Below, piece after piece: positions 156 to 5,595 of a stretch of DNA of 10,305 nucleotides. How positions within the stretch are numbered: the stretch's first letter is position 1; each line of letters starts with the position of its first letter. A program made the position numbers and the translations under genes. The notes under the pieces are model-generated. The model saw only the letters and a program-made list of their open reading frames with translations, made no database searches and had not been told where the DNA came from. Origin of the DNA: an uncultured Chloroflexota bacterium (GTDB taxonomy: Bacteria > Chloroflexota > Dehalococcoidia > UBA3495); the NCBI GenBank assembly GCA_913052545.1, contig CAJXEF010000072.1, positions 1 through 10,305 of the forward strand, read 5' to 3'.

Positions 156-201
156 TGCCTGACTAAAATCCTTTGTTTTTTGACACGCCCATGGAGAGTT
201 T

Positions 202-1032
202 ATGACGTTGAACAGCGAATTTGCACACCCCGAATATTTGGTTGATGCTGAATGGGTTGACATGCATAAAGGTGATCCGAGCGTGATCGTTGTGGATTCA
301 GATGTGCCAGAAGGGTACAGGCGAGGCCATATTCCTGGATCTGTGATGGTGCCAGATAATTGGGAAAAGGATCCCGATACCGACCGGATTCATATCATGA
401 ATCCGAAACAATTCGCTTCTATGTGCGAGAGCCTAGGGATTGGTGACAAGAGCGAAGTAGTTGCTTATGACGGTTCTCAAAGCCTCTATGCCGCAAGGTT
501 GTGGTGGTCATTAATTTACTACGGACATCGGAAAGTAAAAGTATTGGACGGTGGATGGCGCCGATGGGTATTTGAAGGGAGAACAATTAGTTTTGATAGG
601 GCGGAAAAGGCTAGCGGTACTACATTCACCCCGAAAAGCGACGATTCAGTTATCGCTGGAGTAGATGAGCTCAAAAGAGCGTGTCATATGGAAGATGCTG
701 TTATTTGGGATGTCCGTAGCAGGGGTGAGTACGATGGTTCTAATAGTGAGGACAACAGGCGAGCGGGACATATCCCAGGTGCAGTTAATCTAGAATGGTT
801 CAACGTTGTTGATAGGCATTCCCACAAATTCAAAGACCCAAAAGAGATTAGGAAAATATTAGAAGACGGGGGGATAACCCCCGATAAGCCTATCTATTCT
901 TATTGACAAGGAGGCATCCGTGCGGCGCACGGGATGTTCGTCCTGAGCCTACTTGGCTATCGGAGGGTGAAAAACTATGATGGCTCAATGGCTGAATGGG
1001 CTAATCGGGATGACACTCCCTTGGATTTATAG
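202..1032 (+). CDS. Selenocysteine-containing rhodanese / thiosulfate (3-mercaptopyruvate) sulfurtransferase, TGA read through
   Basis: This is a tandem-rhodanese sulfurtransferase, a family that moves a sulfane sulfur from thiosulfate or 3-mercaptopyruvate to a thiophilic acceptor. Domain 1 (about residues 10-130) has the inactive-type core, with VVAYDGSQSLYAARLWW and LDGGWRRW. Domain 2 (about 150-270) has WDVRSRGEY and GHIPGAVNLEW. The normal catalytic loop is Tyr-Cys-Gln-Gly-Gly; here it reads Tyr-TGA-Gln-Gly-Gly (TGA at 904-906, residue 235). The frame continues with GIRAAHGMFVLSLLGY and NYDGSMAEWANRDD, the expected family C-terminus, to TAG at 1030-1032. The total is 276 residues, normal for the family; stopping at the TGA would leave 234 without an active site. 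The start is ATG with GGAGAG at 193-198. A SECIS-like hairpin follows the TGA. The alternative is a recent Cys-to-TGA nonsense mutation, which the intact downstream frame and hairpin argue against. Confidence 0.88.
909..944 (+). promoter_or_regulatory. Candidate bacterial SECIS element (selenocysteine insertion hairpin) in the coding sequence
   Basis: The upper stem pairs CATCC-GTGC (915-923) with GCAC-G-GGATG (927-936), nine pairs with one bulged G at 931, closing a GGC loop at 924-926. The lower stem can extend with G913-C939, a G914-U938 wobble and AGGA (909-912) with TCCT (941-944), leaving G940 and U937 bulged. The loop begins 17 nt after the TGA, and its first two bases are G. As I know them, the published bacterial SECIS constraints are a loop 16-37 nt from UGA, a short loop and a G in its first two positions. 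Wobble positions of 13 codons across and just after the hairpin (910-948) are G/C in 11, unlike the surrounding gene, consistent with selection on RNA structure. SelB binding is inferred. Confidence 0.75.
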
Positions 1033-3218: not shown

Positions 3219-3268
3219 GAGCGAGGTGATACTGATTAGCTTGTATGGTTAGTATGGAGATGATAGGT

Positions 3269-3748
3269 ATGAACGAGATCATTCATCTAAAAGTTAATGG
3301 CACCGAACATGAATTAGAAGTGCCAGCTCGGAGATTATTAGTCGATTGCCTACGTTACGACATAGGGCTTACTGGTACAAAGGAGGGATGTAGTGTCGGG
3401 GTGTGTGGTGCCTGTACGGTATTGATTGACGGGGAAATGGCGGCCTCTTGTATTACCTTGGCTGTAGCTGCCGATGGATTGGATATCACAACTATAGAAG
3501 GATTGGCTAACGGGAAGGAACTACATCCTATACAACAATCATTTATTGATCATGGTGGTTTCCAATGCGGTATCTGTACACCTGGTCAAATAATGGCTGC
3601 TAAGGCTTTGTTGGATGTAAATCCAGATCCCACCGAGGACGAGGTTAAAGAGTGGATGATGGGAAACTTGTGTAGGTGTACTGGGTATTACAAGATATTG
3701 GAGTCCGTTATGGAAGCCGTTAAGCCTACTCAGGATGTAAATAAATGA
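3269..3748 (+). CDS. CoxS-type [2Fe-2S] subunit of a xanthine/CO-dehydrogenase-family molybdenum hydroxylase
   Basis: This small subunit carries two [2Fe-2S] clusters that relay electrons from a molybdenum site to FAD. At 159 residues it has the usual length. The N-terminal plant-ferredoxin domain has Cys41, Cys46, Cys49 and Cys61 (GCSVGVCGACTV). The C-terminal helical domain has Cys100 and Cys103 (CGICTPGQ) and Cys135 and Cys137 (GNLCRCTGYY). All eight ligands are present. The ATG at 3269 is chosen because GGAG lies 9 bases upstream and the protein begins at the family N-terminus; three earlier in-frame ATGs (3245, 3254, 3260) lack a well-placed site. Its TGA stop overlaps the next ATG (ATGA at 3745-3748), indicating translational coupling. 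The name CoxS is by family; sequence alone does not separate CO, nicotinate, xanthine or other hydroxylases. Confidence 0.93.
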   Translation: MNEIIHLKVNGTEHELEVPARRLLVDCLRYDIGLTGTKEGCSVGVCGACTVLIDGEMAASCITLAVAADGLDITTIEGLANGKELHPIQQSFIDHGGFQCGICTPGQIMAAKALLDVNPDPTEDEVKEWMMGNLCRCTGYYKILESVMEAVKPTQDVNK

Positions 3749-4614
3749 TCGATTTTCAATACCATACGCCAAATACCCTGGAAGAAGTTTTTGATTTATT
3801 GAACACATACGGTGAAGATGCTCGGGTTATGGCCGGTGGGACGGCTTTAGTTATCCAAATGAAACAAAGATTGCTACAGCCTGAGCATGTCATAAATTTG
3901 CGAAAAATTTCGGGACTCTCAGGTATAAACAAATCGGAGGATGGAATTCAGATAGGCTCTCTTTGCACACAGAGAGCTGTAGAAACGGATCCTCTGGTTT
4001 CTGAGATTGTTCCTTTGGTAGCAAATGCCTACGGTCGTATAGCGACCCCGCGGATTCGTCATATGGCTACGGTTGGCGGTGGATTAGTACATGGTGATCC
4101 GAGTCAGGATCCTCCTCCTAGCCTTATTGCATTAGGGGCACGCGTAATTTTGACCTCCGATAGTGGGGAACGTGAATTAATGCTTGAAGATTTCTATCTT
4201 GATTACTATGAGACTGATGTCAGGGAAGGCGAGGTATTAACGGCTTTGATTGTGCCTGCTGCGCCGATCGGATCTGGAACAGCCTATCTAAAATTCTTGC
4301 CTAGGACAGCAGATGATTACGCTACGGTATCAGCGGCCGCAGTGGTTTGCAGAGCAAGTGATAATACGTGTGAAGATTTGAAACTGGTATTGGGATCTGT
4401 TGGAGTTACTCCTATCAGGGCGGCTGAAGCGGAACAACGTTTGATAGGAAAATCATTGACAGACGAAAATATCCGAGCAGCAGTGGCAACAGTTAAAGAC
4501 GTTGTGGATCCGCTAGAGGATTACCGTGGCTCGGCGGACTACAAACGAGATATGGCGGAAGTATTCGCAAGAAGAGCCATTGAGAGAGCGGTCGAGGACA
4601 TTGTAGATATCTAA
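3745..4614 (+). CDS. CoxM-type FAD-binding subunit of a xanthine/CO-dehydrogenase-family enzyme
   Basis: This 289-residue subunit would bind FAD and pass electrons from the CoxS-type clusters to a quinone or other acceptor. FAD motifs are AGGTALV (30-36) and ATVGGGLVHGDPSQDPP (108-124), corresponding to the family's AGG and TIGG segments. The C-terminal CO-dehydrogenase flavoprotein domain follows, with the FLPRTADDYATVSAAAVV segment near 190 and ending in FARRAIERAVEDI. The length is normal. The start overlaps the coxS-type stop by 4 bp. In known systems these two subunits function only with a large molybdopterin subunit of about 780 residues, which is not present here, so the complete enzyme needs a gene elsewhere. 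Confidence 0.92.
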   Translation: MIDFQYHTPNTLEEVFDLLNTYGEDARVMAGGTALVIQMKQRLLQPEHVINLRKISGLSGINKSEDGIQIGSLCTQRAVETDPLVSEIVPLVANAYGRIATPRIRHMATVGGGLVHGDPSQDPPPSLIALGARVILTSDSGERELMLEDFYLDYYETDVREGEVLTALIVPAAPIGSGTAYLKFLPRTADDYATVSAAAVVCRASDNTCEDLKLVLGSVGVTPIRAAEAEQRLIGKSLTDENIRAAVATVKDVVDPLEDYRGSADYKRDMAEVFARRAIERAVEDIVDI

Positions 4615-4639
4615 ACTAGTGTCGTTTGAGGATTAGCTA

Positions 4640-5092
4640 ATGAAGTTGGAAAACCGGTGTGTGGTGCCAGCCAACATCCAGAAGACTTGGGATTTGATCA
4701 TGGATATCCCTCGTGTAGCGACATGTGTTCCGGGGATGCAGGAGATAACTGTAGATGAAGATGGGAACTATCAAGCGAGTCTCAGAGTCAAAGTCGGGCC
4801 GATGGGTCTAACTTTATCGGGATCATTGCATATCGTTGAACAGGATTCATCGGGTAAAGAGGCCCGGTTTTTGATCGAGGCATCAGATCGCCGCGTTGGT
4901 GGTGCCCTGAGAGCTGACCTAGTGATGCAATTAGTGCAACAAGAAGAAGACCAAACCGAAGTGGTTCTAAATACTGACACTACGTTCATCGGCAAATTAG
5001 GTGAGTTGGGGCAACCTATTATCAGAAGGAAGGCTAATAATACCATGCAAGAATTTGCCGATAATCTATCGAAGAAAGTAAATCAATCCTAG
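4640..5092 (+). CDS. CoxG-like SRPBCC-fold protein (CO dehydrogenase subunit G family)
   Basis: This 150-residue protein of the CoxG family has the START/SRPBCC ligand-binding fold. CoxG is linked to membrane recruitment of CO dehydrogenase and, in studied actinobacteria, to quinone handling. Homologues here are identified by the N-terminal segment PANIQKTWDLIMDIPRVATCVPG and the C-terminal segment GKLGELGQPIIRRKANNTMQ. There is no long C-terminal hydrophobic anchor, unlike longer CoxG proteins, so it ends soon after the fold. ATG at 4640 has GAGG at 4628-4631. It lies 25 bp after the CoxM-type gene and is followed by a terminator, so it is probably the last gene of the operon. Its exact ligand is unknown. 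Confidence 0.88.
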   Translation: MKLENRCVVPANIQKTWDLIMDIPRVATCVPGMQEITVDEDGNYQASLRVKVGPMGLTLSGSLHIVEQDSSGKEARFLIEASDRRVGGALRADLVMQLVQQEEDQTEVVLNTDTTFIGKLGELGQPIIRRKANNTMQEFADNLSKKVNQS

Positions 5093-5126
5093 GCTAACTA
5101 ATTTCAAATTCAAGCTTTAGACTATG

Positions 5127-5160
5127 AGGAGCGGGCGAGAATGGTCCGCTCCTGATTTTT
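5127..5160 (+). terminator. Rho-independent terminator after the coxS-coxM-coxG-like cluster
   Basis: AGGAGCGG (5127-5134) pairs perfectly with CCGCTCCT (5146-5153), an 8-bp GC-rich stem with an 11-base loop, followed by GATTTTTGTT. It lies 34 bp past the CoxG-like stop and marks the operon end on the plus strand. Confidence 0.8.
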
Positions 5161-5247
5161 GTTGGTGCTTATGGGCAAGATTGCCCGAAATACATACTTA
5201 TCCATTGAAGTTAATCCTTAGACATCAGGAGTCAGTCGATTCTGAGC

Positions 5248-5439
5248 ATGCTCACAATTTTTATATTGTTTATATTGAGCCACCACGGAGAGGCGGATCC
5301 AGAACTATTAATATGGATTAAAGACTTACTTGACCAGATGGTTGGAATGTCACCATGGACGATTGTTATAGCGATAGGGTTGGTTCTGATCGCTATCCCG
5401 ATTGGGGTTACGGCGTTATTTCTTTTTCAGCGCAGATGA
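5248..5439 (+). CDS. Small single- or double-pass membrane protein, unknown function
   Basis: A 63-residue reading frame. The N-terminus (about residues 1-10, MLTIFILFIL) is hydrophobic. An acidic/amphipathic middle (EADPELLIWIKDLLDQM) follows, then a strong transmembrane segment at about 36-60 (TIVIAIGLVLIAIPIGVTAL), ending in FQRR, which suits a cytoplasmic C-terminus by the positive-inside rule. I do not recognise the family. AGGAG at 5226-5230 is 17 bases before the ATG, too far for an ideal site, so the start is uncertain; the stop TGA at 5437-5439 is firm. It sits between the cluster terminator and the ThDP-enzyme gene. The hydropathy pattern argues for a real gene, but its short length leaves doubt. 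Confidence 0.5.
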   Translation: MLTIFILFILSHHGEADPELLIWIKDLLDQMVGMSPWTIVIAIGLVLIAIPIGVTALFLFQRR

Positions 5440-5470
5440 GTTCGTGGTGTTATGGGAGTAACTGCTTTGA

Positions 5471-5535
5471 TTGGTATTTACCAAACACGATGCCTATAGG
5501 CAATGATTCAATTCCTTTCATGTTGAGGGCATGCC
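5471..5535. promoter_or_regulatory. Palindrome-rich upstream region of the ThDP-enzyme gene (candidate operators)
   Basis: Within 65 bases are a 14-bp inverted repeat TTGGTA-TT-TACCAA (5471-5484), a 10-bp perfect palindrome GCCTATAGGC (5492-5501) and an 8-bp palindrome GGCATGCC (5528-5535). None is followed by a T-run, so they are not terminators. The first has TGGT and ACCA half-sites like FadR-type GntR operators but with a 4-bp rather than 3-bp spacer. Regulation of the gene at 5596 is inferred; no convincing promoter boxes were found. Confidence 0.35.
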
Positions 5536-5595
5536 ATCCTATATGCTAATTACTTGTGTTTACTGTGTCTTATCAAATAATAGTGGAGGTCTATT

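Follow-up and report, generated by a model that had tools for sequence, protein, structure and literature searches.

A predicted tandem-rhodanese (SseA/COG2897-like) selenoprotein with selenocysteine at the position of the catalytic cysteine

The family to which the gene described here belongs is already known. In the Sargasso Sea survey of 2005, the passage on COG2897 counts this rhodanese-related sulfurtransferase (3 sequences) among the new selenoprotein families, gives it a SECIS element, and states already then that selenium is implicated in sulfurtransferase function (PMC1088965); the original prediction was thus correct in pointing to rhodanese selenoproteins from marine metagenome surveys. 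Later entries include the sulfurtransferases cd01449 (8 sequences) and COG2897 (1) in the relevant part of PMC2398784, 'COG2897 (SseA), MQG53192.1' in a 2022 review (PMC9312934) and 'rhodanese form 4, PF00581, UxxG, MCY3690685.1' in a 2026 review (PMC13188914), where form 2 also carries UxxG. Form 4 appears to be the same family, since that review places it together with other families from the Sargasso Sea. Sulfurtransferase and rhodanese-like selenoproteins are also mentioned for a deltaproteobacterium in a passage of PMC8318568, and one rhodanese-like sulfurtransferase stands in the list of PMC5029168. The passages on the family in this literature yielded no biochemical work on the COG2897 Sec rhodanese, and for papers on selenocysteine in SAR202 or Dehalococcoidia neither the titles and abstract openings nor the passage of PMC5649159 concerned this enzyme. 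The passages on the family offer 3 sequences or one example accession each, whereas the host group, the prevalence, a covarying hairpin, Sec/Cys switching and the link to the Sec machinery are measured here.

The window, which is the whole stretch of 10,305 nucleotides that was analysed, agrees with these COG2897 selenoproteins, as their entries describe them, in an SseA-type rhodanese, the UxxG motif (U-Q-G-G in the window) and a predicted stem-loop after the TGA (PMC1088965, PMC9312934, PMC13188914). Short rhodanese (seleno)proteins (NF041203) share rhodanese homology together with Sec, but their model has 126 positions, the window matches it weakly (28.8 bits; cut-off 115), and their motif is CxU in the corresponding entry of PMC13188914 instead of UxxG. 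The two-domain fold itself is that of the solved thiosulfate sulfurtransferases from Thermus (1uar), Mycobacterium (SseA/CysA2/CysA3: 3hzu, 3hwi, 3aay/3aax) and Azotobacter (1e0c), with query TM-scores of 0.87-0.90, although these enzymes carry Cys and not Sec and are only 32-38% identical to the window protein. In 1uar and 3hwi the catalytic residue lies at the same place and an Arg likewise ends the loop, which reads CRIAER or CRIGER as opposed to UQGGIR in the window. The 3-mercaptopyruvate sulfurtransferase SseA of E. coli (1urh) also shares the fold (query TM-score 0.79-0.81), but its loop, CGSGVT, lacks the terminal Arg, and the window scores 136 bits (E 1.3e-39) with the corresponding NCBIfam model, NF008557, below the curated cut-off of 250.

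The gene occupies positions 202..1032 of the forward strand and is preceded on the same strand by GGAGAG (193..198), a likely ribosome-binding site 3 nt upstream of the ATG. Re-translation of 202-1032 with TGA as U gave 276 residues up to a TAG (1030-1032), so the frame does continue past the TGA as had been proposed, and a single TGA was found, at 904..906 (+), codon 235. A profile search delimits two PF00581 (rhodanese) stretches in the product, the C-terminal one (residues 154-268; 661..1005, +) bearing residue 235, and solved thiosulfate sulfurtransferases are matched over nearly the full length. In the alignment, residue 235 falls on the Cys of 'YCRIAERSSH' in Thermus 1uar and of 'YCRIGERSSH' in mycobacterial 3hwi, which we take to be the catalytic Cys; the placement of the only in-frame TGA at the active-site Cys of the second rhodanese domain, the core of the original prediction, is thus upheld. 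The odds that one random stop would fall on this codon are 1/276. On the evidence of the sequences, the TGA is almost certainly a selenocysteine codon, neither a pseudogene mutation nor an error, by which Sec would replace the catalytic Cys of domain 2, and the product is most likely a sulfur-transfer enzyme with selenium in its active site.

A protein search returned 5248 relatives, the best 120 of which are 59-97% identical to the window protein, one of them named SAR202. As far as protein records go, 119 of these best 120 end at query residue 234 and the remaining one at 231, which is precisely the truncation that automated annotation had been expected to produce. At the nucleotide level, codon 235 in 226 non-identical homologue rows is TGA in 78, TGC in 135 and TGT in 13, although the 78/226 does not represent a frequency because TGA loci were chosen deliberately; the rows do not count 22 Sec genes of a second class added afterwards. 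Neither TAA nor TAG occurs at this column, so that only Cys codons or TGA are found there, as the prediction had anticipated, and together with the 1/276 this places the position of the TGA beyond chance. Two of the Cys-type rows (L011 and L043, kept within the Cys count) show other in-frame stops, one and two respectively, and may be pseudogenes or frameshifts.

Among 80 loci from titled genome records, TGA stands at column 235 in 4, and TGC or TGT in 76. Two of the four TGA loci are near-identical, L001 from a record titled Gemmatimonadetes and L002 from one titled Candidatus Binatia: over about 14 kb, 11 of their 12 predicted proteins are 100% identical and the remaining one 96%, so that one contig may be mis-binned or mislabelled. 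A broader sample, of 393 genomes, covered the class to which G007 belongs, the genome that holds a locus titled Dehalococcoidia bacterium (L012). A match was obtained in 230 of them and, among the matches listed, every one is either stop-free or interrupted by a single TGA; at least 74 genomes have a TGA match among those listed, and the 75 genes taken from them all carry the TGA at column 235. Seven further TGA genomes came from the SECIS pattern search described below, which raises the figure to at least 81/393. In a second class, that of the genome with the Candidatus Binatia locus (G002), 24 of 145 genomes contain a match with one TGA and, among the matches listed, no other stop. All 22 of the Sec genes examined there have the TGA at column 235 with six hairpin pairs formed; the genes of the other two genomes are L002 and L003.

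Directly 3′ of the TGA, ATCCGTGCGGCGCACGG or a near variant is present in nearly all Sec genes. Its core in the window is a SECIS-like hairpin, CCGUGC-GGC-GCACGG (918..932, +), with six pairs joining nucleotides 12-17 to 21-26 counted from the TGA, and the loop GGC at nucleotides 18-20 (924-926). According to PMC1088965, a bacterial SECIS is a stem-loop that follows closely after the TGA and has a G in its small apical loop, and the window hairpin has such a G-containing loop just downstream of its TGA. Minimum-energy folding extends the hairpin to 909..944 (+; -16.3 kcal/mol), with G931 bulged and the outer pairs shifted by one, a register known from the single fold of the window. Pairing was counted in 79 Sec rows, with L001 and L002 entered separately, and 73 of these rows have His at +8; these rows are sequences and not separate events. 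In the 73, pairs 13-25, 14-24, 16-22 and 17-21 are always intact, 15-23 is intact in 72 and 12-26 in 71. The outermost pair, 12-26, is C-G in 59 rows, G-C in 10, A-U in 2 and unpaired in 2, so that it has been preserved by changes on both sides in 12/73 rows. By comparison, the 19 Cys genes that encode identical residues here form pair 12-26 in 2 cases, 13-25 in 10, 15-23 in 4 and 17-21 in 11, while 14-24 and 16-22 are formed in all 19 and therefore provide no evidence for a SECIS. All six core pairs are formed in the window, as in 69/78 Sec rows, against 0/83 Cys rows; five are formed in 6 of the latter.

Codon usage is also constrained. The Arg codon within the hairpin is CGT in 72/79 Sec rows, as opposed to 120/1299 upstream Arg codons of the same genes, and over 23 close Sec pairs pS is 0.46 before the TGA and 0.33 after the hairpin, but 0.023 in the four hairpin codons. 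Single-sequence folding is more variable: of 2000 synonymous recodings, 26 fold at least as stably as the original for the window, and 12 to 473 for seven relatives (473 for L091), so that, folding being weak for several relatives, the argument is carried by covariation and codon constraint. A search with the exact TGA-plus-hairpin pattern gave 75 matches in 74 of the 393 genomes, every one in the rhodanese gene (68 in known TGA genes and seven more in the same gene with TGA), and 0 with a reversed control, which tests specificity only because the pattern was built from the genes that it finds. The pattern had no match in the viral contigs searched. A plasmid search was negative too, and Rfam at its gathering threshold gave no match in the window, a result that does not by itself exclude a SECIS. 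In six Sec rows (L171, L006/L182, L166, L174, L169 and L159) the residue at +8 is Phe, Leu or Val and not His, and in these a hairpin of -11.9 to -14.5 kcal/mol is predicted by folding about 3 nt further downstream, as if the SECIS had been rebuilt upon the residue change.

In relatives, the machinery required for Sec insertion mostly accompanies the TGA form. In the class of G007, SelB was found in 72 of the 81 TGA genomes versus 183 of the 312 others (Fisher p=6e-8), a value that overstates independence because members of a class share ancestry, and the 312 may include further TGA forms. The SelB threshold (E<=1e-62) excludes other elongation factors and loses fragmentary SelB, possibly in G004. 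At least one of SelB and tRNA-Sec is present in 80/81 TGA genomes: of the nine that lack a SelB match, eight have a tRNA-Sec (E<=1e-10) and G350 has neither, and our guess is that incomplete assembly lies behind such missing matches. Of 14 control genomes, the tRNA-Sec model matches two at E<=1e-10, those of E. coli and M. jannaschii, whereas at E<=1e-3 all 393 genomes of the sample match, 317 of them over the model's cut-off, because other tRNAs cross-match. Eight TGA genomes were checked individually, including the nearest relatives G376, G016 and G075, and SelB, selA and a tRNA-Sec with TCA anticodon were found in 8/8, and selD above the cut-off in 7/8, with none above it in G353. The selD match of G376, G016, G075, G093, G328, G034 and G065 contains one TGA, which indicates that SelD itself is probably a selenoprotein in these seven. 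Two genomes hold both Sec and Cys copies of the rhodanese enzyme, G350 (L159/L218) and G065 (L091/L230).

An AlphaFold2 model of the protein, with Cys at 235, reached a mean pLDDT of 95.7 and a pTM of 0.93, and its best Foldseek matches are thiosulfate sulfurtransferases (query TM-score 0.89 for Mycobacterium SseA 3hzu and 0.90 for Thermus 1uar). The active-site loop U-Q-G-G-I-R has six residues, and its Arg240 is kept in 78/78 Sec rows; a six-residue anion-binding loop is the rule for SseA-type sulfurtransferases. Asp90 occupies the matching position of the N-terminal domain in the window, as does Asp in 94% of the 78 Sec rows, so that Sec235 is likely the sole catalytic chalcogen. In the Sec rows, Cys is most frequent at columns 33 (50 of 78) and 152 (48 of 78), which hold Ser33 and Ala152 in the window, and two of the 78 aligned regions contain no other Cys at all. 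This lack of a conserved Cys column makes an internal resolving Cys unlikely.

The explanation that we favour, with a probability of roughly 0.85, is a tandem-rhodanese (SseA/COG2897) selenoprotein whose UGA would be read as Sec and whose selenolate would carry out sulfane-sulfur transfer. SelB and a Sec-tRNA(UCA) would decode UGA 235, with the small hairpin just downstream directing the insertion. The selenolate of Sec235 would then most likely accept sulfane sulfur from thiosulfate, or from another anion like it, forming an enzyme Se-S(-) intermediate, from which the sulfur would be handed to an external thiol or a protein acceptor. We infer this Se-S(-) chemistry from the sequences and the structural model, and naming thiosulfate as the donor is guesswork based on the loop Arg. 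In the passage on human TST in PMC9369223, donor specificity is set by loop charges.

A truncated protein of 234 residues, or a decaying pseudogene with the TGA as a true stop, is what the 119 of the best 120 database relatives (of 5248) whose predicted proteins end there would seem to indicate. However, the segment after the TGA is the better conserved one, with 31/41 residues identical to the nearest relative (L087) versus 136/234 before it, and the 23 close Sec pairs give a pN/pS of 0.115 after the TGA versus 0.179 before, a sign that selection keeps the C-terminus. Purifying selection on this segment, a column free of TAA and TAG in all 226 rows and the conserved hairpin leave this explanation very little credit. 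A sequencing error would need only one base, since TGC and TGT are that close to TGA, but the same TGA recurs in at least 81/393 and in 24/145 other genomes, and the window has the full set of hairpin pairs that marks most Sec rows and none of the 83 Cys rows; the chance of such an error seems negligible. Equally far-fetched is a genome-wide reassignment of TGA to Trp, Gly or Cys, which would also account for an in-frame TGA with conserved sequence beyond it. In the window, TGA terminates three well-identified genes, those of the acyl-CoA dehydrogenase, CoxS and the aldehyde dehydrogenase, as well as a 63-aa ORF (5248-5439), which agrees with its use as a normal stop in the original prediction; it also ends 25/78 Sec genes, and the eight relatives checked encode SelB, SelA and a tRNA-Sec with the TCA anticodon. 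Pseudogene, sequencing error and reassignment were all rejected on account of the conservation, the recurrence of the TGA, the hairpin and the TGA stops elsewhere.

A different kind of alternative accepts the Sec and questions its role, which might lie in selenium handling, as a carrier towards SelD, or in redox chemistry, as a reductase or peroxidase, instead of sulfur transfer. In vitro, TST takes up selenium 1:1 in the form of a perselenide, and it may supply the synthesis of selenophosphate, according to the corresponding passage of PMC9369223, and a section heading of PMC1088965 states that 'Most selenoprotein families serve redox functions'; moreover, the Cys at columns 33 and 152 in 50 and 48 of the 78 Sec rows would allow some members of the family a partner Cys. 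Against such roles stand the sulfurtransferase-type fold, the conserved loop Arg, the Ser33 and Ala152 of the window and the two aligned regions devoid of other Cys. A function in Sec supply makes less sense where a stop-free match goes without any SelB match, as it does in at least 14 genomes. Altogether we regard a selenium or redox role as unlikely, though worth keeping in mind, and sulfane-sulfur transfer by Sec235 remains our preferred reading.

With regard to the history of the family, a quickly built tree of 78 Sec and 82 Cys rows, 160 in all, implies 13 Sec/Cys changes, at least 8 of which are forced by the starred branches, compared with a mean of 53 when the Sec/Cys labels are shuffled; 42 of its 157 inner branches are open and several end branches are long. 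The window clusters with L087 (G376), L088 (G016) and L089 (G075) with an SH-aLRT of 99, and Sec and Cys forms appear as sister pairs in L182/L239 and L177/L221. What this analysis would contribute to the known family, as far as sequence comparison goes, is its prevalence (at least 81/393 genomes in one class and 24/145 in a second), the conservation of its SECIS and the repeated changes between Sec and Cys. The wider proposal, that these genes represent a widespread Sec sulfane-sulfur transferase working as a Se-S(-) carrier, which has undergone at least 8 Sec/Cys switches on the tree, occurs in two classes of probably different phyla and is overlooked by annotation, seems to us slightly better than an even bet. 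The family would have been missed because gene prediction stops one codon ahead of the active site, and the ending of 119 of the 120 best-matching database proteins (of 5248) at that point amounts to a systematic annotation gap. According to the pertinent passage of PMC2398784, oxidoreductases make up the majority of the selenoproteins whose function is known, and a Sec sulfurtransferase, if true, would be a test of what selenium brings to sulfur transfer, for which close relatives such as the two sister pairs make matched enzyme comparisons possible.

The surroundings of the gene in the window follow the order rhodanese, acyl-CoA dehydrogenase, SDR, CoxS and CoxM, also present in G376 with extra predicted ORFs in between. 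Among the 11 other loci compared, only this nearest relative shares the order, so the neighbourhood gives no functional clue. Among the named matches of the TPP enzyme encoded in the window, one is a SAR202 cluster bacterium and one a Candidatus Entotheonellia entry, and others are labelled Dehalococcoidia or Chloroflexi. The host is probably a Chloroflexota bacterium of the SAR202/Dehalococcoidia type. CoxS, CoxM and CoxG are adjacent at 3245-5092, and no gene for the large catalytic subunit (CoxL) was found in the window. The stretch that separates CoxG from the TPP enzyme (5093-5595) contains overlapping small ORFs, of which the one at 5248-5439, the TGA-terminated frame of 63 aa, resembles a membrane peptide.
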